Below, piece by piece: positions 6,900 through 21,866 of a stretch of 21,934 bases of DNA (positions within the stretch are counted from its first letter, which is position 1; the number at the start of each line of letters is the position of its first letter). The stretch spans positions 1-21,934 of the IMG/VR virus record IMGVR_UViG_3300037258_000348; one strand, 5' to 3'. The DNA comes from a virus. Position numbers and translations under genes: made by a program. The notes beneath the pieces were generated by a model. It ran no database searches, was not told the origin of the DNA, and saw only the letters and a program-made list of their open reading frames with translations.

Positions 6900-7137
6900 G
6901 GGATGGCGGCCCCAGCCGCCGCAGGAATACGCCGCCAAGGGCATTACCAACGCGGGTGCCGCCCCCGATTACCAGGGCGTTATCTTCAGCGACGGCACCG
7001 TGTGCATCCGCTGGTGCACCGAGTACAAGTCGCACAGCACCTGGCAGTGCTGGGCCGATTTCCACCGGGTCCACGGGCACCCGGAGTACGGGACGCTCAT
7101 CAAGTTCAGCGACGGCGGCTCCGCCCCAGACGCGTGA
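6886..7137 (+). CDS. 83-aa protein of the deazaguanine operon, unknown function
   Basis: A TTG start at 6886 is supported by an AAGGGACGG-type ribosome binding site just upstream. The ORF overlaps the ParB-like stop by 14 bp and the dpdA start by GTGA. The product reads TFEGWRPQPPQEYAAKGITNAG, then a strand-rich core (GVIFSDGTVCIRWCTEYKS) and FHRVHGHPEYGTLIKF. It is a compact, aromatic-rich, beta-strand protein. I do not recognise an enzymatic motif. Its location between the ParB-like protein and the transglycosylase, in a tightly coupled operon, makes it a candidate accessory subunit of the DNA-modifying machine. Confidence 0.65.
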   Translation: MRTFEGWRPQPPQEYAAKGITNAGAAPDYQGVIFSDGTVCIRWCTEYKSHSTWQCWADFHRVHGHPEYGTLIKFSDGGSAPDA

Positions 7138-8033
7138 ACCTCGCCTACCCGGTCGACACCCTGGTCTCCTATCACTACTACGGCGGCGACGACATCATGG
7201 AGGCGATCACCGGGGCCGGGCGGCTGCGCCTGATCGGTGACAGCGGCGCGTTCAGCGCGCATACCCAGGGCGCCGTGATCACCCTCGGCGCCTACGCCGG
7301 GTGGGTCAGCCGATGGCAGGACCGCCTCGCGTGGGCGGCGTCCCTGGACGTGATCGGCGACCCCGACGCGACGTGGGCGAACTGGCTCCAGCTCCGCGAC
7401 GGGCACGGCGTGACCACCGTGCCGACCCTGCATGCCGGGACCGACCCGGCGTGGCTGGACCGGTACGCGGACGAGGGCGTGGACTTCGCCGGCCTGGGCG
7501 GCCTGGTCGGCAGGCAGGCCGCGGCGGTCATGCCGTGGCTGGTGCACGTGTTCCGGTACTGCCGCGACCGGCACCCCGCCATGCGGTTCCACGCGTGGGG
7601 CGTGTCCGGCCGCCGCATCCTCGACGCGCTGCCGTTCTGGTCCGCCGATTCCTCCTACGCCCTGTCCGCAGGGTGGCGGTACGGGAAGTTCTTCCTGTTC
7701 GACCCGCGCACCGCGCGGACCACCGGGTTCGCCCTCGACGGCCGCGACCCGTACCGGCACAACGACCTGATCAGCCGCATCTACGGCGCCGACCCCGCCA
7801 GCCTGACCCCCTCGAACCGGACCGCCTGCGTCAAGCTCGCCGCCGCGTCCGCCCAGCAGTACGCCGCGTGGCTCCAGGCCCGCCACAAGGTGACCCCGCC
7901 CGCGTCCGCGACGCTGACCGGCACCCGGTTCCACGTCGCGCCGTGCAAGAGCGAGGTAGCCAGCCTGCTGACCGGCCCGCGCGTGCACGTCACCACCGCC
8001 GAGAACGCCCTGATGAAACGGATCGCCGAATGA
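7134..8033 (+). CDS. dpdA: DpdA-like DNA 7-deazaguanine transglycosylase (TGT superfamily)
   Basis: The 299-aa product resembles phage DpdA proteins, relatives of tRNA-guanine transglycosylase that exchange guanine in DNA for a 7-deazaguanine base. Visible TGT-like elements are DSGAFS (Asp36, equivalent to the DSGGF catalytic Asp region), SLDVIGD (Asp72/Asp76), PTLHAG, the GLGGLVG glycine loop (about 120-126) and FHAWGVSG. It is shorter than tRNA TGT and lacks the CxCxxC zinc insertion seen in tRNA enzymes. The C-terminal ~80 residues are family-specific. It is coupled to its neighbours by GTGA upstream and ATGA downstream. Immediate linkage to queC, queD, queE and folE is the strongest support for the assignment. 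Confidence 0.82.
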   Translation: MNLAYPVDTLVSYHYYGGDDIMEAITGAGRLRLIGDSGAFSAHTQGAVITLGAYAGWVSRWQDRLAWAASLDVIGDPDATWANWLQLRDGHGVTTVPTLHAGTDPAWLDRYADEGVDFAGLGGLVGRQAAAVMPWLVHVFRYCRDRHPAMRFHAWGVSGRRILDALPFWSADSSYALSAGWRYGKFFLFDPRTARTTGFALDGRDPYRHNDLISRIYGADPASLTPSNRTACVKLAAASAQQYAAWLQARHKVTPPASATLTGTRFHVAPCKSEVASLLTGPRVHVTTAENALMKRIAE

Positions 8034-8689
8034 TCATCCTGCTCTCCGGAGGCATGGACTCCACCGTCCTGGCCGCGCACTGCCTCGCCGCCGGACTCCA
8101 TACCGAGGCGCTGACCGTCGACTACGGGCAGCGGCACGCCCGCGAGATCGAGGCGGCGAAGGCCGTCGCGTCCTACTTCGGGATCCGCCACGACGTGATC
8201 ACCCTCCCTGTCGGGCCGCTGCTCACGGGGTCCGCGCTCACCGACCCGTCCGTCGACGTGCCGGACGGCCACTACGCCGAGCCCAGCATGGCGGCCACGA
8301 TCGTCCCCAACCGCAACGCGATGATGCTCATGACAGCCGCAGCGGTCGCCGCCGCACGCGGTCACTCCCTCGTCGCCACCGCCGTCCACGCCGGGGACCA
8401 CCCGGTGTACCCCGACTGCCGGCCCGAGTTCGTCGAGGCCGCGTCGCGGTGCGCCGCACTCGGCACCGCCGGGCACGGTGACGTGGAGATCACCGCGCCG
8501 TTCGTGACCATGACCAAGGGCGAGATAGCCCGGCACGGCCTCCGGCTCGGTGCGCCGCTGGAGCTGTCGTGGTCCTGCTACAAGGGCGGCGAGCGGCCGT
8601 GCGGGACCTGCGGGACCTGCACCGAGCGGGCCGAGGCATTCGCCCTGGCCGGCGCCCCCGACCCCGCCATCCTCGAGGCGGGCCGGTGA
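8030..8689 (+). CDS. queC: QueC, 7-cyano-7-deazaguanine (preQ0) synthase
   Basis: QueC converts 7-carboxy-7-deazaguanine to preQ0 using ATP and ammonia. The 219-aa product has the PP-loop SGGMDS at residues 6-11, the VDYGQRHAREIEAA block, and PNRNAMMLMTAAAVAAARG. The C-terminal zinc site is Cys183, Cys191, Cys194 and Cys197 (SWSCYKGGERPCGTCGTC). Length and motifs match stand-alone QueC. There is no fused glutamine amidotransferase domain as in Gat-QueC proteins, so the product should be preQ0 rather than an amidated derivative. ATG overlaps the dpdA stop. It supplies the base used by the neighbouring transglycosylase. Confidence 0.93.
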   Translation: MIILLSGGMDSTVLAAHCLAAGLHTEALTVDYGQRHAREIEAAKAVASYFGIRHDVITLPVGPLLTGSALTDPSVDVPDGHYAEPSMAATIVPNRNAMMLMTAAAVAAARGHSLVATAVHAGDHPVYPDCRPEFVEAASRCAALGTAGHGDVEITAPFVTMTKGEIARHGLRLGAPLELSWSCYKGGERPCGTCGTCTERAEAFALAGAPDPAILEAGR

Positions 8690-9114
8690 CCCGCCACTCA
8701 GTCACGGTCAGGCACACGTGGGAGGCGGCGCACCGGCTCCCGCACCTGCCCGGCAAGTGCCAGAGCCTGCACGGCCACTCCTGGGCCGCCGCCGTCACCG
8801 TCACCGCGCCCGAGCTGGCCGGCGGCATGCTCGTGGAGTTCGGGCCGTTCAAGACCGCGCTCCGCGCCTGGATCGATGACAACCTCGACCACGGCGCGAT
8901 GCTCGGCCCCGCCGACCCGCTCACGGCCGCGCTGGCCGGCGAGCGCTGCAAGGTGTTCCCGGTGCCGGGCTGGCCGACCGTCGAGAACATCGCCGCCCTC
9001 CTCGCCGTCGTCGCGCAGCGGGAACTGGGCAGGCTGACCCGCGCGCCCGGCGCCGCCGTCGCCTGCGTCCGGGTCCGGGAGACACCCGTGAACGAGGCCG
9101 CGTGGCACCGCTGA
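8686..9114 (+). CDS. queD: QueD, 6-carboxy-5,6,7,8-tetrahydropterin synthase
   Basis: QueD turns dihydroneopterin triphosphate into 6-carboxytetrahydropterin. The 142-aa product has the PTPS fold signature: WEAAHRLPHLPGKCQSLHGHSW with zinc ligands His16, His29 and His31 and catalytic Cys25. The MLVEFGPFK strand, the NLDHGAML motif and PTVENIA follow, and VRVRETP closes the domain. The GTG start at 8686 overlaps the queC stop. The length is normal for the family. It performs the second step of the preQ0 pathway encoded here, between FolE and QueE. Confidence 0.93.
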   Translation: MTRHSVTVRHTWEAAHRLPHLPGKCQSLHGHSWAAAVTVTAPELAGGMLVEFGPFKTALRAWIDDNLDHGAMLGPADPLTAALAGERCKVFPVPGWPTVENIAALLAVVAQRELGRLTRAPGAAVACVRVRETPVNEAAWHR

Positions 9115-9803
9115 CCCTGGTCGTCTCCGAGGTCTTCGGCCCCACCATCCAGGGCGAAGGACCCAGCGCGGGCCGCTGCGCCGGGTTCATCCGCCTGGGC
9201 GGGTGCAACCTCCGGTGCCGCTGGTGCGACGCCGCGTACACGTGGGACGCGGCACGGTATGACCTGCGCGAGGAAACCCGCCGCCTGGCCGTCGAGGAGA
9301 TCGCGGCGCGGGCACTGCAAGGCGGCCCGCCGCTGGTCGTGATCACCGGAGGCGAGCCGCTGCTGCACCAGGGACAGCCCGGCTGGGACCTGCTCCTCGG
9401 CCGGCTCGCCGCCCGCGCCGAGATCGAGATCGAGACCAACGGCACCGTCATGGCCACCCCAGCGACCCTGAGCGTGGCACGCCTGAACGTGAGCCCGAAG
9501 CTCGCCCACTCCGGTGACCCGCGCGCCGCGCGGATCCGCCCCGCCGTCCTGGCCGGCCTCGCCGACACCCGCCGCGCCGTGTTCAAGTTCGTGTGCCGCG
9601 ACATCGCCGACCTGGACGAGGCCGAGGAGATCGCCGTCCGCGCCGCCATCCCCGCGCAGCGGATATGGATCATGCCCGAAGGCACCACCCGCGAGGAGAT
9701 CACCGCACGCCTCGCGCTCCTCGCCCAGCCCGCCGCCGACCGCGGCTGGAACATCACCACGCGCCTGCACATCCACGCGTGGGGCAACGAGCGGGGCCGC
9801 TGA
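9102..9803 (+). CDS. queE: QueE, 7-carboxy-7-deazaguanine synthase (radical SAM)
   Basis: QueE is a radical-SAM enzyme that contracts 6-carboxytetrahydropterin to 7-carboxy-7-deazaguanine. The 233-aa product begins with FGPTIQGEGPSAGR, followed by the cluster motif CNLRCRWC (Cys35, Cys39, Cys42; CX3CX2C). ITGGEPL then binds the SAM amino group, and later come EIETNGT, NVSPKLAHSGD and VFKFVCRD. The GTG start at 9102 overlaps queD by 13 bp. All key residues are present and the length is typical. It is the third step of the pathway in this operon. Confidence 0.93.
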   Translation: MAPLTLVVSEVFGPTIQGEGPSAGRCAGFIRLGGCNLRCRWCDAAYTWDAARYDLREETRRLAVEEIAARALQGGPPLVVITGGEPLLHQGQPGWDLLLGRLAARAEIEIETNGTVMATPATLSVARLNVSPKLAHSGDPRAARIRPAVLAGLADTRRAVFKFVCRDIADLDEAEEIAVRAAIPAQRIWIMPEGTTREEITARLALLAQPAADRGWNITTRLHIHAWGNERGR

Positions 9804-10378
9804 TGAACCTGGACGAGGCACGCAGCCACCCCGCCACCGCGCACGCCCGCGCCATGCTCACCGCGCTCGGCCTCGCGCCCTGCCGCGAGGAGACCGCCGA
9901 CACGCCGGCCCGGTTCGTCCGCGCCCTCGCCGAGCTGACCAGCGGCCTGGACACCGACCCGGCCCGGCACCTCGCCGTGACGTTCCCCCCGCCGTCCGAT
10001 GATCCCGGCCTGGTCGTCATCCCCGGCATCCCGTTCACCGCCGTGTGCGAGCATCACCTGCTCCCGTTCAGCGGCACCGCGACGGTTGCCTACCTGCCTG
10101 CCTCGCGCATCGTGGGCCTGTCCAAGCTCGCCCGCCTGGTGCAGGAGTACGCCGCCCGCCCGCAGGTACAGGAACGCCTCGGTGACCAGATCACCGCGGC
10201 GATCGTCACGCACCTCGACGTGCGCGGCGCCGCGTGCATCCTGCGCGCGGTCCACACCTGCATGACCCTGCGCGGCGCCCGCGCGGCCGGCGCGGTCACC
10301 GTCACCTCGCACCTGCGGGGCGCCCTCCGCGACGACGCGGCAGCACGCGCCGAGCTGCTGCGGTTCGCCGGGCCGTGA
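9803..10378 (+). CDS. folE: FolE, GTP cyclohydrolase I
   Basis: FolE makes 7,8-dihydroneopterin triphosphate from GTP, the entry step to preQ0. The 191-aa product carries VCEHHLLPFSG (Cys82 and His85, zinc ligands), RIVGLSKLARLVQEYAARPQVQERL, and HTCMTLRG with Cys153, the third zinc ligand. Length matches bacterial FolE. ATG at 9803 shares one base with the queE stop. A phage copy frees the pathway from host folate control. It is the last biosynthetic gene of the operon. Confidence 0.93.
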   Translation: MNLDEARSHPATAHARAMLTALGLAPCREETADTPARFVRALAELTSGLDTDPARHLAVTFPPPSDDPGLVVIPGIPFTAVCEHHLLPFSGTATVAYLPASRIVGLSKLARLVQEYAARPQVQERLGDQITAAIVTHLDVRGAACILRAVHTCMTLRGARAAGAVTVTSHLRGALRDDAAARAELLRFAGP

Positions 10379-10653
10379 CGGTGAAGATGGCCGCATCCAC
10401 CTGCGATGTGTGCGGCCTGCTGGACCTGTACGACGGCGCGGGCGACGGCATCGGCTCGTGCGACTGCCCGCGCTGCGAGGAGTGCGGCGAGGCGGCCGGG
10501 TCGGCCTGGTGCAGGGGATGCCAGCGCGATGACTACGAGCCAGACGGCGACGACTACACCCTCTGGTTAGGGGACGAGGCGCGACGGCACGCGCGGGTCA
10601 TCCCGCAGTCAGGTTCCCATCTCGGGTCAGCCGGACGGCCAGCGCGGCATTGA
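10375..10653 (+). CDS. Small Cys-rich protein at the end of the deazaguanine operon
   Basis: A GTG at 10375 overlaps the folE stop (GTGA) and gives a 92-aa product; GTG 10381 or ATG 10387 are alternatives. It has many cysteines, CDVCGLLD, CDCPRCEECG and WCRGCQRD, enough for two zinc sites, then an acidic stretch (DYEPDGDDYTLW). No enzyme motif is visible. The last ~18 codons overlap the convergent gene at 10598, and the tail reads as low-complexity sequence, so the true end may be poorly conserved. Its position makes it a possible accessory factor for base insertion, which is inference. Confidence 0.5.
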   Translation: MTVKMAASTCDVCGLLDLYDGAGDGIGSCDCPRCEECGEAAGSAWCRGCQRDDYEPDGDDYTLWLGDEARRHARVIPQSGSHLGSAGRPARH

Positions 10654-16426: not shown

Positions 16427-17413
16427 ATGCCCATCAAGCCGGTAATGAGCCGCGCCGACGCGATCGCCCTGATCGTGGAGGAACGCGGCGCCGAGGTCGT
16501 CCAGCTCGCCGAGCAGCAGTCCGTCGCGATGGCCGCGTTCACCAAGCAGCCCATGGGTACCAGCATCCGGGAGATACCGCTGCTGGAGACCCTGCCGTCC
16601 GCGTACTGGCTGGACAGCGGCGACCAGGGCGACAAGACCGGCGCCGCCGCGAAGGACGATGCGGTCAAGCCGACCACCAGCATGAAGTTCGGGGTCAAGA
16701 AGCTGGTAGCCGAGGAGATCGCCTGCATCGCGGTCATCCCGGAGGCGGTGCTGGAAGACGCCCACTACGACCTGTGGGGGTTCATCCGCGCCCGCGCGGC
16801 CGAGGCCATCGGGCGGGCCGTCGACATGGCCGTCTTCTTCGGCGCGGCCGTCGACTCCAAGGGCACGGTCGGCACCGCGCCCGCCTCATTCGGCGGCGGC
16901 CTGTTCAAGATGGCCACCGACAACGACCACGTCCACCAGGCGGCCGAGGACCCCGACATCGGCGAGGACTTCAACCTCGCCATGGCGCTGATCGAGGACG
17001 ACAACTACAACCCGGCCGCCGCGTTCTGCGGCAACTCCCTCAAGCCCAAGCTGCGCGGGCTGCGGGACAAGAACGGGAACCCGATCTACGCGCCGGGCCT
17101 GCGCAACCAGCCCGGTGTCGCGTCCGCCGACGCCGTGTACGGGGTGCCGACCCGGTACTCCACCAACGGCGCGTGGGACCCGACCAAGGCCGTCGCGATC
17201 CTCGCCGACCCGCAGTACTGCATCATCGGCGTCCGGCAGGACATCCAGGCGAAGTTCCTGGACCAGGCCACCATCCAGGGCGTCAACCTGGCCGAGACCG
17301 ACCAGCTCGCGCTCCGCATCCGCGCCCGGTTCGGGTTCACCGTCCTGTGCCCCAAGGGCCTGGGACAGTCCGCCAAGCCGTTCCCGGCGGCGGTGATCAG
17401 CCCAAAAGCGTGA
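16427..17413 (+). CDS. Major capsid protein (HK97 fold)
   Basis: The 328-aa product has features of the HK97-fold capsid family. An N-terminal helix is followed by E-loop-like SIREIPLLETLPSAYWLDSG, the spine (VKKLVAEEIACIAVIPEAVLED), an A-domain section (DFNLAMALIEDDNYNPAAAFC, then KPKLRGLRDKNGNPIY) and the ending DQLALRIRARFGFTVLCPKG. AAAAGGAGG gives a near-perfect ribosome binding site, fitting high late expression. Two codons before its stop lies the slippery heptamer C CCA AAA (17401-17407). A -1 shift there would give a 374-aa form ending in an Ig-like half-domain. Confidence 0.92.
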   Translation: MPIKPVMSRADAIALIVEERGAEVVQLAEQQSVAMAAFTKQPMGTSIREIPLLETLPSAYWLDSGDQGDKTGAAAKDDAVKPTTSMKFGVKKLVAEEIACIAVIPEAVLEDAHYDLWGFIRARAAEAIGRAVDMAVFFGAAVDSKGTVGTAPASFGGGLFKMATDNDHVHQAAEDPDIGEDFNLAMALIEDDNYNPAAAFCGNSLKPKLRGLRDKNGNPIYAPGLRNQPGVASADAVYGVPTRYSTNGAWDPTKAVAILADPQYCIIGVRQDIQAKFLDQATIQGVNLAETDQLALRIRARFGFTVLCPKGLGQSAKPFPAAVISPKA

Positions 17414-17446
17414 CCCCGGAGCCGGGACCGTCCGTGACCGGGGTCA
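17401..17446 (+). promoter_or_regulatory. Programmed -1 frameshift site at the end of the capsid gene
   Basis: C CCA AAA at 17401-17407 fits X XXY YYZ in the capsid reading frame (CCA = Pro, AAA = Lys). TGACCCCGG (17411-17419) pairs perfectly with CCGGGGTCA (17438-17446), a 9-bp stem just downstream. If the first three pairs melt, the spacer is 6 nt. A -1 shift bypasses the TGA at 17411 and enters the frame ending at 17550, which encodes IPT/TIG sequence. The similar appending of Ig-like domains to phage capsid and tail proteins by frameshift is known. Confidence 0.75.
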
Positions 17447-17550
17447 GCCCCAGCTCGGGGGCCTCCGCCGGGGGCACCCAGGTCACGATCAGCGGCACCG
17501 GGTTCCGGGCCACGACCAGGACCAAGACGAAGGGGGCCAGCAATGGCTAA
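17410..17550 (+). CDS. N-terminal half of an IPT/TIG Ig-like domain, capsid frameshift extension
   Basis: This 46-codon frame is -1 to the capsid gene. It encodes PSVTGVSPSSGASAGGTQVTISGTGF, the first two strands of an IPT/TIG domain, followed by a basic tail (RATTRTKTKGASNG). The GTG at 17410 overlaps the capsid stop, but expression through the 17401 frameshift is more likely, which would fuse it to capsid subunits. The domain lacks its second half, which lies in the next ORF in another frame. TIG domains on phage particles are thought to bind host-surface or environmental polysaccharides. Confidence 0.7.
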   Translation: MTPEPGPSVTGVSPSSGASAGGTQVTISGTGFRATTRTKTKGASNG

Positions 17551-17719
17551 CACGCCAGCAGTGACGTTCGGCGACCAGCCCGCGACCGATGTCGCGGTCG
17601 TGTCGGACACCGAGATCACCTGCACCTCACCAGCCGGCACGGCCGGCACGGTGGCGGTCACGGTGACCGCCGGCGGCAAGGATGCCTCGCTGCCCGACGG
17701 GTTCACCTACACGGCCTGA
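17543..17719 (+). CDS. C-terminal half of an IPT/TIG Ig-like domain (58 aa)
   Basis: ATG at 17543 has GAAGGGGG (17529-17536) 6 nt upstream. The product AVTFGDQPATDVAVVSDTEI ... TAGTVAVTVTAGGKDASLPDGFTYTA corresponds exactly to the second half of an IPT/TIG domain, from strand C to the end. It is in frame +1 (equivalently -2) to the preceding half-domain ORF and overlaps it by 8 bp. It may be an independent small protein that complements the capsid-fused half, the product of a second frameshift, or a remnant of a broken domain. The good ribosome site favours independent synthesis. Confidence 0.65.
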   Translation: MANTPAVTFGDQPATDVAVVSDTEITCTSPAGTAGTVAVTVTAGGKDASLPDGFTYTA

Positions 17720-17736
17720 CCCCGCAAGAGAACCGC

Positions 17737-17773
17737 CCGGGTCCGCGCCGCCACAGCAGCGGCGCGGACCCGG
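17737..17773 (+). terminator. Perfect 15-bp hairpin after the capsid/Ig genes
   Basis: CCGGGTCCGCGCCGC (17737-17751) pairs with GCGGCGCGGACCCGG (17759-17773) around a 7-nt loop. It is one of the most stable structures in the window and follows the capsid block in a 121-bp gap. No U-tract is present, as is common in high-GC actinobacteria. It probably lowers transcription of downstream genes or protects the capsid mRNA 3' end. Confidence 0.55.
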
Positions 17774-17840
17774 CGTCATCCCCGGCGCCGCCGCGCGCCG
17801 CAACCCAGCACGGAACAGCGAGAGGACACGGGGCAGCGCA

Positions 17841-18113
17841 ATGACCGCAACCGTCAAGTTCGGCACCGCCGAGGCGACCGGCGTCACCGTCAGGAACGAC
17901 ACCACGATCGAGTGCACGACACCGCCCGGCGCCGGCACCGCCGACGTGTCGGTCACCACGGACGGCGGCACCGCCGCCAAGGCCGGCGGGTTCACCTACC
18001 AGCCGCCCCCGCCGCCCGAGCCCACGGTGACCGCTGTCGCGCCCGCCACCGGCCCGGCCGCCGGCGGGACCGCGACCACCATCACCGGCACCGGGTTCAA
18101 GGAAGGCAAGTAA
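17841..18113 (+). CDS. Permuted IPT/TIG protein: C-half, Pro linker, N-half
   Basis: The 90-aa product begins with the second half of an IPT/TIG domain (ATVKFGTAEATGVTVRNDTT then IECTTPPGAGTADVSV ... GGFTYQ, residues 3-54). A PPPPPEP linker follows, then the first half of another IPT domain (TVTAVAPATGPAAGGTATTI, GTGFKEGK) and stop. No complete domain is present in the usual order. The N-half and C-half could pair within the chain as a circular permutant, or with half-domains on the capsid-fused and tail-tube proteins. ATG at 17841 has a G-rich upstream region (AGAGGACACGGGGCAG). I know of no named family with this order. Confidence 0.65.
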   Translation: MTATVKFGTAEATGVTVRNDTTIECTTPPGAGTADVSVTTDGGTAAKAGGFTYQPPPPPEPTVTAVAPATGPAAGGTATTITGTGFKEGK

Positions 18114-18118
18114 ACCCC

Positions 18119-19039
18119 ATGAGCCGCGTGAGGAACACCGCGTGCGCGCTGCTGACGGCGGCAGCACTGGCCGCGCCCGGCGTCACGGTCAGCGCCGCCC
18201 CGCCGCCGCCGCTGGACAGCACGGTCATCAACGACGGAGCCGTGGTCCCCGCGGTACCCGCCGCGCAGCAGGCACCCGCGGTACCGCTGCCCGCAGGCGA
18301 GCAGGCCGACCAGGGGTCAGCGCTGCTGCGCCGCGTGCTGGCCGAGGCCCGCAAGTGGACCGGCACCCTGGAAGTCCCCCGCGACTCCAACCGGACGATC
18401 TTCGGGCAGGACTACGGGTGGGACGGCGTGGCCTGGTGCGCCATCTTCGTGTCGACCATCTCCCAGTGGGCCGGCGCGAAGGCCGGCGTGGTGTACCCGC
18501 GCACCGCCTCGGTGGCTGCCGCCCGCGCGTGGTTCCTGAAGCAAGGCCGGTTCGGCCGGCAGCCCGAACCGGGTGACTGGGTGATCTTCGGCCCCACGGG
18601 CGCCGATCATGTCGAGCTCGTCGTGAAGGTCACCGCGACGCAGATCGAGACGATCGGCGGGAACACCAACGTCGGCCCGCAGTCCCACGGCGGCGCGGAC
18701 GGCGTATACGAGATCCGGTACCTGCGGACCAACCCCGCGATCGACGGCTACGGCCACCCGCTCTACGCCGCCCCCTCAGGCACCGCCGGCAGCGGGCACG
18801 GGCCGCTGCCCGGCCCCGCCGGGCTGCTGCCGGTGACCGGCGGCGACCGGGACCGGCTTGCCGTCCTGGCCTGCCTGGGAGCGGCGCTGCTGGCGGGCGG
18901 TACCGGACTGCGGTACGCGTGGCGGCGGCGCGGCGCGCACCAGCGGCGCCTGCACGTCATCGCGGCGTGCGCCGCGATCCTTGCAGCGGCAGCCGCCGCC
19001 GGGACGCTCGCCGCCGCCCTGGTACTGGCGGCCACGTGA
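18119..19039 (+). CDS. Secreted CHAP-domain cell-wall hydrolase with LPVTG sorting-like signal
   Basis: The 306-aa product starts with a signal peptide (RVRNTACALLTAAALAAPGVTVSA, cleavage near residue 26). A Pro/Ala linker leads to a CHAP amidase/endopeptidase domain, about 68-205. Cys107 in AWCAIFVS, His164 in ADHVELV and Asn182 in GGNTN are the likely catalytic residues. LPVTG follows at 237-241, then a hydrophobic helix and WRRRG, resembling a sortase signal, and then a second hydrophobic helix at about 275-304. It is 5 nt after the split-Ig gene, inside the structural operon, not in a lysis cassette. It could be a surface-anchored hydrolase of the lysogen or infected cell, or a virion-associated enzyme. 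The second helix argues that it may simply be a membrane anchor. Confidence 0.75.
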   Translation: MSRVRNTACALLTAAALAAPGVTVSAAPPPPLDSTVINDGAVVPAVPAAQQAPAVPLPAGEQADQGSALLRRVLAEARKWTGTLEVPRDSNRTIFGQDYGWDGVAWCAIFVSTISQWAGAKAGVVYPRTASVAAARAWFLKQGRFGRQPEPGDWVIFGPTGADHVELVVKVTATQIETIGGNTNVGPQSHGGADGVYEIRYLRTNPAIDGYGHPLYAAPSGTAGSGHGPLPGPAGLLPVTGGDRDRLAVLACLGAALLAGGTGLRYAWRRRGAHQRRLHVIAACAAILAAAAAAGTLAAALVLAAT

Positions 19040-20701: not shown

Positions 20702-21448
20702 ATGCCCGCTGCTGCACCCGCGCCAGTTACCGGCGCCGTGACACCGCACGCCCCGTCCGGGGGAACCGAGATCGTCCTGCCCGGCGGCGCCGCCGGCATG
20801 CCCGTGGTCGCGGGCAACGGCGACATCTACGTCGCGCCCGCGCTCACCCCGTGCCCCAGCACGCTCATCGCCGAGCCCGCCTCCCCGTGGCGGCGCCTGG
20901 GACTGGTCACCGAGGACGGCGTGACGTGGACGCCGCCGAGCGAGGAAACCGAGGAAGTAAAGGCCTGGCAGTCCAGGTACCCGGTCAGGATCGTGACCAC
21001 CGGCCTGTCCACATCGGTCGGGTTCAGCCTGCTGGAATGGTCACGGACCACGGTCGAGGTCACCCTGGGCGGCGGGACCTGGGAAGACTCCGGTGAGCTG
21101 GTCATCTACAAGCCGCCGCCGGCCGGCGCGGCCTCCGAGGTCGCCCTGTTCGTGGCCGCCGTCGACGGCAGCAGGATCTACGGGATCTACCTGCCCAAGT
21201 GCAAGGTGACCGAGCGGGACGACATCAATTTCAAGGCGGACGCTCCCGCGGTCCTGAACATGACGCTCGCGATCGTGGGCCAGCTCGGGCTGGACCCGTA
21301 TCAGCTCGTGTTCGGCAAGGACACGCTGCCCGGCGCGGTAGAGGTGACCGGCGTTGACCCGGCGGCCGGCGCAGCGGCCGGCGGCACCCAGGTCACGATC
21401 ACCGGCAAGGGCTTCGGGCCTGCGACTCAGCCGGCGGTGCGCAAGTGA
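20702..21448 (+). CDS. Major tail tube protein with C-terminal IPT/TIG half-domain
   Basis: AGGAGGT (20687-20693) lies 8 nt before ATG. The 248-aa product has an actinophage tail-tube core: NGDIYVAPALTPCPSTLIA, PWRRLGLVTEDGVTWTPPSE then EVKAWQSRYPVRIVTT, SLLEWSRTTVEVTLGGGTW, YGIYLPKCKVTERDDINFK. The last ~36 residues (213-248) are VEVTGVDPAAGAAAGGTQVT, ITGKGFG and a short tail: the first half of an IPT/TIG domain, ending at the same loop as the other halves in this window. The DNA segment coding GGTQVTI is nearly identical to that at the capsid, suggesting recent copying between genes. Confidence 0.85.
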   Translation: MPAAAPAPVTGAVTPHAPSGGTEIVLPGGAAGMPVVAGNGDIYVAPALTPCPSTLIAEPASPWRRLGLVTEDGVTWTPPSEETEEVKAWQSRYPVRIVTTGLSTSVGFSLLEWSRTTVEVTLGGGTWEDSGELVIYKPPPAGAASEVALFVAAVDGSRIYGIYLPKCKVTERDDINFKADAPAVLNMTLAIVGQLGLDPYQLVFGKDTLPGAVEVTGVDPAAGAAAGGTQVTITGKGFGPATQPAVRK

Positions 21449-21822
21449 CCCGCCCGCCGATCAACCTGGACGCCCGGGCCGCCGCGCACCGCGAGGCACG
21501 CGGCGAGCCGCCCGCGCTCATCTTCCGGGGCCGCGAGTACGCGCTGCCGGTGACCCTCACCCTGGACCAGGCAGAGGTGCTGAACAACGCCGGGGAGGAC
21601 ATGCGCGCGGTCGTCCTCATGCTGCTCGGCCCGGAGCAGGCCGCGATGTTCCTCGCGTCGGACCCGCCGCCGGACCTGGACGACATGGTTGCCCTGGCCG
21701 AGGTGCTGAGCGAGGCATACGGCGCCGACGCGGGGGAATCACTGGCCTCGCCGGCATCCTCGCCGAGCACTGGGACGCCGCCGAGGCCAGTTTCGCCGCC
21801 GTCTACGGCCTCCGCCTGTTGA
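21445..21822 (+). CDS. Tail assembly chaperone, gpG-like upstream frame
   Basis: GTG overlaps the tail tube stop. The 125-aa product begins PPINLDARAAAHREARGEPP then ALIFRGREYALPVTLTLDQAEVL, the usual start of actinophage tail assembly chaperones, and has a helical core (LMLLGPEQAAMFL, DLDDMVALAEVLSEAYG). The end after the slippery site (SPASSPSTGTPPRPVSPPST) is low-complexity, as expected for the unshifted frame. It should bind the tape measure during tail assembly. Confidence 0.85.
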   Translation: MTRPPINLDARAAAHREARGEPPALIFRGREYALPVTLTLDQAEVLNNAGEDMRAVVLMLLGPEQAAMFLASDPPPDLDDMVALAEVLSEAYGADAGESLASPASSPSTGTPPRPVSPPSTASAC

Positions 21823-21866
21823 GCGGCGCGAAAGATTCCCATGGTTTGGCCTGTTCGCGTCACTGA
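21445..21866 (+). CDS. Tail assembly chaperone, -1 frameshift (gpGT-like) product
   Basis: A slip on G GGG GAA (21732-21738) moves the ribosome to the -1 frame. The frame then reads ITGLAGILAEHWDAAEASFA then AVYGLRLLSGAKDS and stops at 21864-21866, giving about 140 residues. LAEHWDAAEASFAAVYG is the typical start of the T segment in actinophages (EHWDxVEADFxRYYG). The T part seems short, and later codons look less well biased. The tape measure gene is beyond the window. Confidence 0.65.
21732..21738 (+). promoter_or_regulatory. Slippery heptamer GGGGGAA in the tail chaperone gene
   Basis: The chaperone frame reads GCG GGG GAA here, so the heptamer is positioned for a -1 slip. GGGGGAA is a slippery sequence I recall from mycobacteriophage chaperone genes. 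The conserved EHWDAAEA sequence appears only after the shift. Confidence 0.7.

Follow-up and report, generated by a model that had tools for sequence, protein, structure and literature searches.

The window analyzed here is the whole of virus record IMGVR_UViG_3300037258_000348, a stretch of 21,934 bases classed as "linear", with a GC content of 72.7%. Early-type genes are followed by terminase, portal, scaffold, major capsid protein (MCP), an IPT/TIG region, connector genes, and a tail tube protein, and the contig stops shortly after entering the tail assembly chaperone region. MCPs of Microbacterium phages share ~40% identity with the MCP encoded here, and the portal is most similar to those of Arthrobacter and Streptomyces phages; from these similarities, the host is probably an actinobacterium. 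Elsewhere in the window, a run of open reading frames (ORFs) at about 6900 to 10400 (plus strand) resembles, by eye, queuosine/deazaguanine genes (QueC-, QueD-, QueE-, and FolE-like) and also includes a possible DpdA-like protein, which suggests DNA base modification.

The zero frame of the MCP gene (PF05065 and phrog_10 by profile matches; 16427 to 17413, plus strand, as are all window features given below) ends in ...AGC CCA AAA GCG TGA. Within this end, and in register ahead of the stop, lies C CCA AAA (17401 to 17407), a canonical X XXY YYZ slippery heptamer for −1 frameshifting. CCCAAAA occurs only once in the 21.9 kb, counting both strands, and its AAA is unique among the lysine codons of the MCP, the other 17 being AAG. 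A stem-loop with a 9-bp stem (TGACCCCGG...CCGGGGTCA, 17411 to 17446) follows closely on the 3′ side as a candidate stimulatory structure; its z score of −1.0 makes it no more stable than shuffles of this GC-rich sequence. The −1 frame continues the MCP by an extension (17408 to 17550) composed of a linker, the N-terminal half of an IPT domain (VTGVSPSSGASAGGTQVTISGTGF), and a basic tail, with a match of 32.3 bits to positions 1 to 31 of the TIG profile. We found that the slippery site at the MCP end opens into an Ig-like (TIG) frame, while a whole Ig-like domain is absent from the frameshift extension, as only TIG positions 1 to 31 precede its TAA stop (17548 to 17550).

This TAA overlaps the ATG of a small gene (17543 to 17719; ATG at 17543, TGA at 17719) encoding a 58–amino acid protein, which is a free IPT C-half (TIG profile 32 to 82, 40.3 bits). 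Inside the coding tail of the N-half, about 6 nt upstream of the ATG and thus at an initiation-like spacing, lies the Shine-Dalgarno sequence AAGGGGG (17530 to 17536, approximate by a base). It pairs at seven of seven positions (GU allowed), a score that only 4 of 196 ATGs in the window reach, one of them being that of the MCP. The reading frame composition changes at the same place: third-position GC in the −1 frame stays near 1.0 up to about 17520, and the signal passes to the frame of the 58–amino acid protein around 17545 to 17565, at the overlapping ATG and TAA. The switch in composition, together with the top-scoring Shine-Dalgarno, argues that the capsid N-half really ends at the TAA and that the C-half is started separately, rather than that a simple indel divides them. 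The separate translation of the C-half, as proposed from the sequence-only reading, is thereby supported.

The same region also bears on a rival history, in which ancestral capsid and tail IPT domains were broken by indels or recombination, or by a sequence or assembly error, and persist as relics without a joint function. If one base of the GGGGG run near 17532 were changed, the capsid N-half and the 58–amino acid C-half would be fused in frame, restoring the capsid domain as a long-loop IPT that resembles the one found in another phage locus (L175), and a single-base error in this run is possible in a lone record. Such decay or error, however, would not be expected to let the frame signal switch where an ATG with a top-scoring Shine-Dalgarno lies.

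Downstream of the 58–amino acid gene, a strong GC-rich hairpin (GGGTCCGCGCCGC...GCGGCGCGGACCC, 17738 to 17773) occupies the intergenic space, and the region around it (17717 to 17845) has a z score of −3.25 against shuffles. The hairpin could set a different expression of the capsid and 58–amino acid genes from that of the genes downstream. The next gene (17841 to 18113) encodes a 90–amino acid protein that consists of an IPT C-half, a PPPPPE linker, and an IPT N-half, and matches TIG in two stretches (53 bits). This layout corresponds to a slice of a tandem IPT array, phase-shifted by half a domain, and alignment to such slices in tandem arrays of bacteria gives up to 61% identity. PHROGs contained no family for either the 58– or the 90–amino acid protein. 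Between the 90–amino acid gene and the connector genes lies a gene for a CHAP endolysin-like protein (PF05257, phrog_9589; 18119 to 19039), an odd member of a head cluster. It starts with a signal-like hydrophobic segment and carries an LPVTG motif (18827 to 18841), after which come a second hydrophobic segment and several basic residues, an arrangement resembling that of a sortase-anchored wall protein.

The tail tube protein (PF25681 and phrog_117 by profile matches; 20702 to 21448) likewise ends in an IPT N-half, and the following gene starts at 21445, overlapping its stop. No C-half follows it downstream. The overlapping gene is a tail assembly chaperone ORF (21445 to 21822), with a −1-frame ORF reaching to 21866 (about 21733 to 21866) that follows a GGGGGAA stretch and resembles the second frame that tail chaperone genes usually have. 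The record is probably a fragment, ending soon after the tail tube gene, and further half-domains may lie beyond the contig end.

A search of the whole record with the Pfam TIG profile (PF01833, curated cutoff 20.9 bits) returned exactly five matches, all above the cutoff and all half-domains. In the DNA search, the N-half of the capsid extension (17428 to 17517) covers profile positions 1 to 33, the C-half of the 58–amino acid protein (17549 to 17710) positions 31 to 82, and the C-half that begins (17841 to 17999) and the N-half that ends (18021 to 18110) the 90–amino acid protein positions 31 to 84 and 1 to 30, respectively; the N-half of the tail tube protein (VTGVDPAAGAAAGGTQVTITGKGF, 21344 to 21415) covers positions 3 to 26 with 23 bits. 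Protein-level hmmscan agreed, placing the capsid extension at 1 to 31, the 58–amino acid protein at 32 to 82, the 90–amino acid protein at 33 to 84 plus a second stretch, and the tail tube protein at 3 to 26. None of the five forms a complete IPT/TIG domain in a single chain, since the pieces span only positions 1 to 33 or 31 to 84. The N-halves comprise strands A and B and the C-halves the remaining strands, so that every cut falls in the B-C loop, after the GTGF of strand B and before the TFG/KFG of strand C, at profile positions 26 to 33. Thus, both the five half-domains and their common break point, which had been proposed from the letters of the sequence, were confirmed.

How much this common break says about its origin is another matter. 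The sequence-only reading had held that random decay would not account for five copies broken at the same point. We estimate that five breaks, if independent and uniform over 84 positions, would coincide within ±4 with a probability of about 1e-4, although the copies are related and their independence is not assured. The argument from the shared cut is weakened, because the halves are paralogous and could all descend from one split, and because the B-C loop in domains of other phages is naturally tolerant of long insertions. Insertions of roughly 10 to 16 residues were found there in intact phage IPTs at three loci (L175, 4611 to 5297; L177, 4965 to 5960; L265, 6980 to 7990), which marks this loop as a tolerant place for cutting. 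The halves are ~50% identical to each other and keep the core TIG residues in all five cases. Their pairwise dN/dS values, all below 1 (about 0.24 to 0.83), are suggestive of constraint, but weakly so for pieces that are very short and GC-biased.

To place these breaks among other IPT domains, we assembled 260 control loci (from viral contigs, genomes, and annotated phages) and searched every frame with our own TIG profile. The scan yielded 226 distinct IPT domains that are intact, spread over 83 loci, and only two broken ones, of which one (L203) is broken elsewhere than in the B-C loop. The other is a tandem array (L182, 5560 to 5800) with a single-base, indel-like break at the B-C loop and an ATGA start/stop overlap; it is most likely a one-base indel, though both the place and the overlap echo the window. 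This case resembles what decay or error would produce at the same loop, and that explanation gains further from the lone N-half of the tail tube and from the fact that all split-domain observations come from one genome in one virus record. Against it stand the 226 intact control domains, the core residues retained in all five halves, and the inability of a single indel to yield both the C-N order of the 90–amino acid protein and the N-half on the tail. On balance, we regard decay or error as rather unlikely.

No relative with IPT halves in the same order was found in the viral or genome contigs searched. Among the loci around capsid relatives, no IPT lay near the MCP except for one weak match, and the closest tail tube relative, the only contig recovered by the tail tube profile search (L006), carries no IPT domain. 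In the viral contigs, the 90–amino acid query matched only intact IPTs. In 395 genomes of the class Actinobacteria, a set chosen through a Bifidobacterium genome, nearly all of the matches listed for this query were tandem arrays in large open frames. Searches of the annotated phage collection by tblastn with IPT queries gave no match even with a consensus IPT, while a less repetitive IPT matched; low-complexity masking is the probable reason, and these negatives are therefore uninformative and were left unused.

We asked how the two capsid-proximal halves would fold together, modeling the capsid extension and the 58–amino acid protein as one chain read through the overlap (the four-letter word GGCT). 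AlphaFold2 predicted a complete IPT fold with a mean pLDDT of 82; the blocks of both halves reached about 88 to 93, and only the loop joining them, within residues 38 to 49, fell below 50. In Foldseek, this model was closest to solved TIG structures from EBF1/EBF3, plexins, Met, and CAMTA1. Because the input alignment consisted of intact IPT domains and so biased the prediction toward this fold, the fold itself is unsurprising, and the useful point is that the cut falls in a disordered loop.

The model shows the adjacent N-half and 58–amino acid C-half to be compatible as one chain, which is also what would be seen if the domain were completed in cis. Here, a −1 shift followed by a +1 shift would produce a full capsid IPT, the 90–amino acid protein would be a self-closing circular permutant, and the tail N-half would be a mere tail. 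Single-frame IPTs with long B-C loops, such as those described above, fit this idea. We considered GGC TAA as the site of a second programmed shift but did not retain it, as it has no recognizable +1 slippery sequence. In prfB, a Shine-Dalgarno–like stretch lies close to the shift codon; the AAGGGGG of the window instead lies at its initiation-like distance from the ATG. The 90–amino acid protein points the same way. Its model unites a well-folded C-half, which taken alone has structural matches at about 1.4 to 3 Å, with an overall arrangement that matched no closed IPT structure; the best matches of the whole were tandem-IPT proteins across two domains, at an rmsd of 8 to 10 Å. The linker, with seven residues from FTY to the next domain against three to six in the tandem arrays sampled, is likewise of the kind that joins neighboring tandem domains. 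The predicted structure thus leans against a self-closing permutant, and we consider completion in cis unlikely.

A further explanation is that the halves are independent short β-hairpin or adhesive tails, acquired by modular recombination and working without pairing. Phage Ig-like domains are thought to spread by non-homologous recombination (review PMC5009743), and the tail N-half does stand alone. Left unpaired, however, an A-B hairpin or a C-half would have its hydrophobic core exposed, and conservation of the core in both types of half would be surprising if they never met. We find this explanation quite improbable.

What is unusual at this locus is that each decorated site carries the A-B half only and that the complementary halves are encoded as free small proteins. 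Completion in trans is the simplest working model. The explanation we favor over any other, with about an even chance of being right, is that a split IPT domain, translated as separate halves, is reassembled in trans to decorate head and tail. A fraction of ribosomes would slip at CCCAAAA and place N-halves on some of the capsid subunits. The shifted ribosomes would stop at the TAA overlapping the ATG of the 58–amino acid gene and might re-initiate there; since only they reach this TAA, such a coupled restart could match the supply of N- and C-halves. On the assembled head or tail, the 58–amino acid C-half would then complete the fold without a covalent link, in a donor-strand, pilin-like manner. 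The 90–amino acid protein could pair with one N-half while presenting another of its own, allowing short non-covalent chains that the 58–amino acid protein would end. That capsid and tail indeed bear such Ig chains of variable length, with N-halves as sockets, 90–amino acid links, and 58–amino acid ends, is a tentative extension that we hold with considerable doubt. The likely role, by analogy with other phage Ig-like domains, would be weak binding to the host surface or the environment. Counting against reassembly in trans are the nearest capsid and tail relatives, which lack IPT domains at these sites, the single-base change that would join the halves, and the unremarkable stability of the stem-loop. 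The interpretation first drawn from the sequence is, as a whole, partly supported.

If reassembly in trans is true, two genes of the virus together supply one Ig-like surface domain, with parts common to head and tail. Beside the covalent Ig-like decorations already known there would then be a non-covalent route that can be adjusted, and protein display would gain a natural split-Ig pair.

We found no split IPT or Ig decoration of a phage in the literature searched. In chaperone-usher pili, donor-strand complementation completes an incomplete Ig-like fold with a strand from another chain and so builds non-covalent chains. Here, in contrast, the two N-terminal strands rather than the G strand are absent, there is no usher, and no sequence relation is shown.

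It is well established that MCPs and tail tube proteins can carry Ig-like C-terminal extensions, which often arise by frameshifting (PMC5009743; PMC8718954). Those of T3, A2, A118, A500, PSA, and SPP1 gp17.1* share with the window a C-terminal Ig-like addition to the MCP or tail tube and, on the MCP, a −1 shift. They are described, however, as one-chain Ig-like domains, while the extensions of the window hold only the first two strands, with the rest in separate genes. The decorated sites themselves are ordinary, as Streptomyces phage Gilgamesh carries IPTs on both its head-cluster protein gp57 and its tail tube protein gp64. Proteins of these two Gilgamesh types, each ending in an intact IPT, were seen among L209 (5170 to 5631), L205 (3416 to 4249), and L241 to L255, and many related viral loci (L241 to L255) share the form on the head-cluster protein. 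Unlike those of the window, all of the IPTs in Gilgamesh and in L241 to L255 are intact and in one frame. Last, T4 Hoc also displays Ig-like domains from the capsid, to which it binds through its own C-terminal domain (PMC10385173); its string of domains is a single polypeptide, unlike the separately encoded halves described here.
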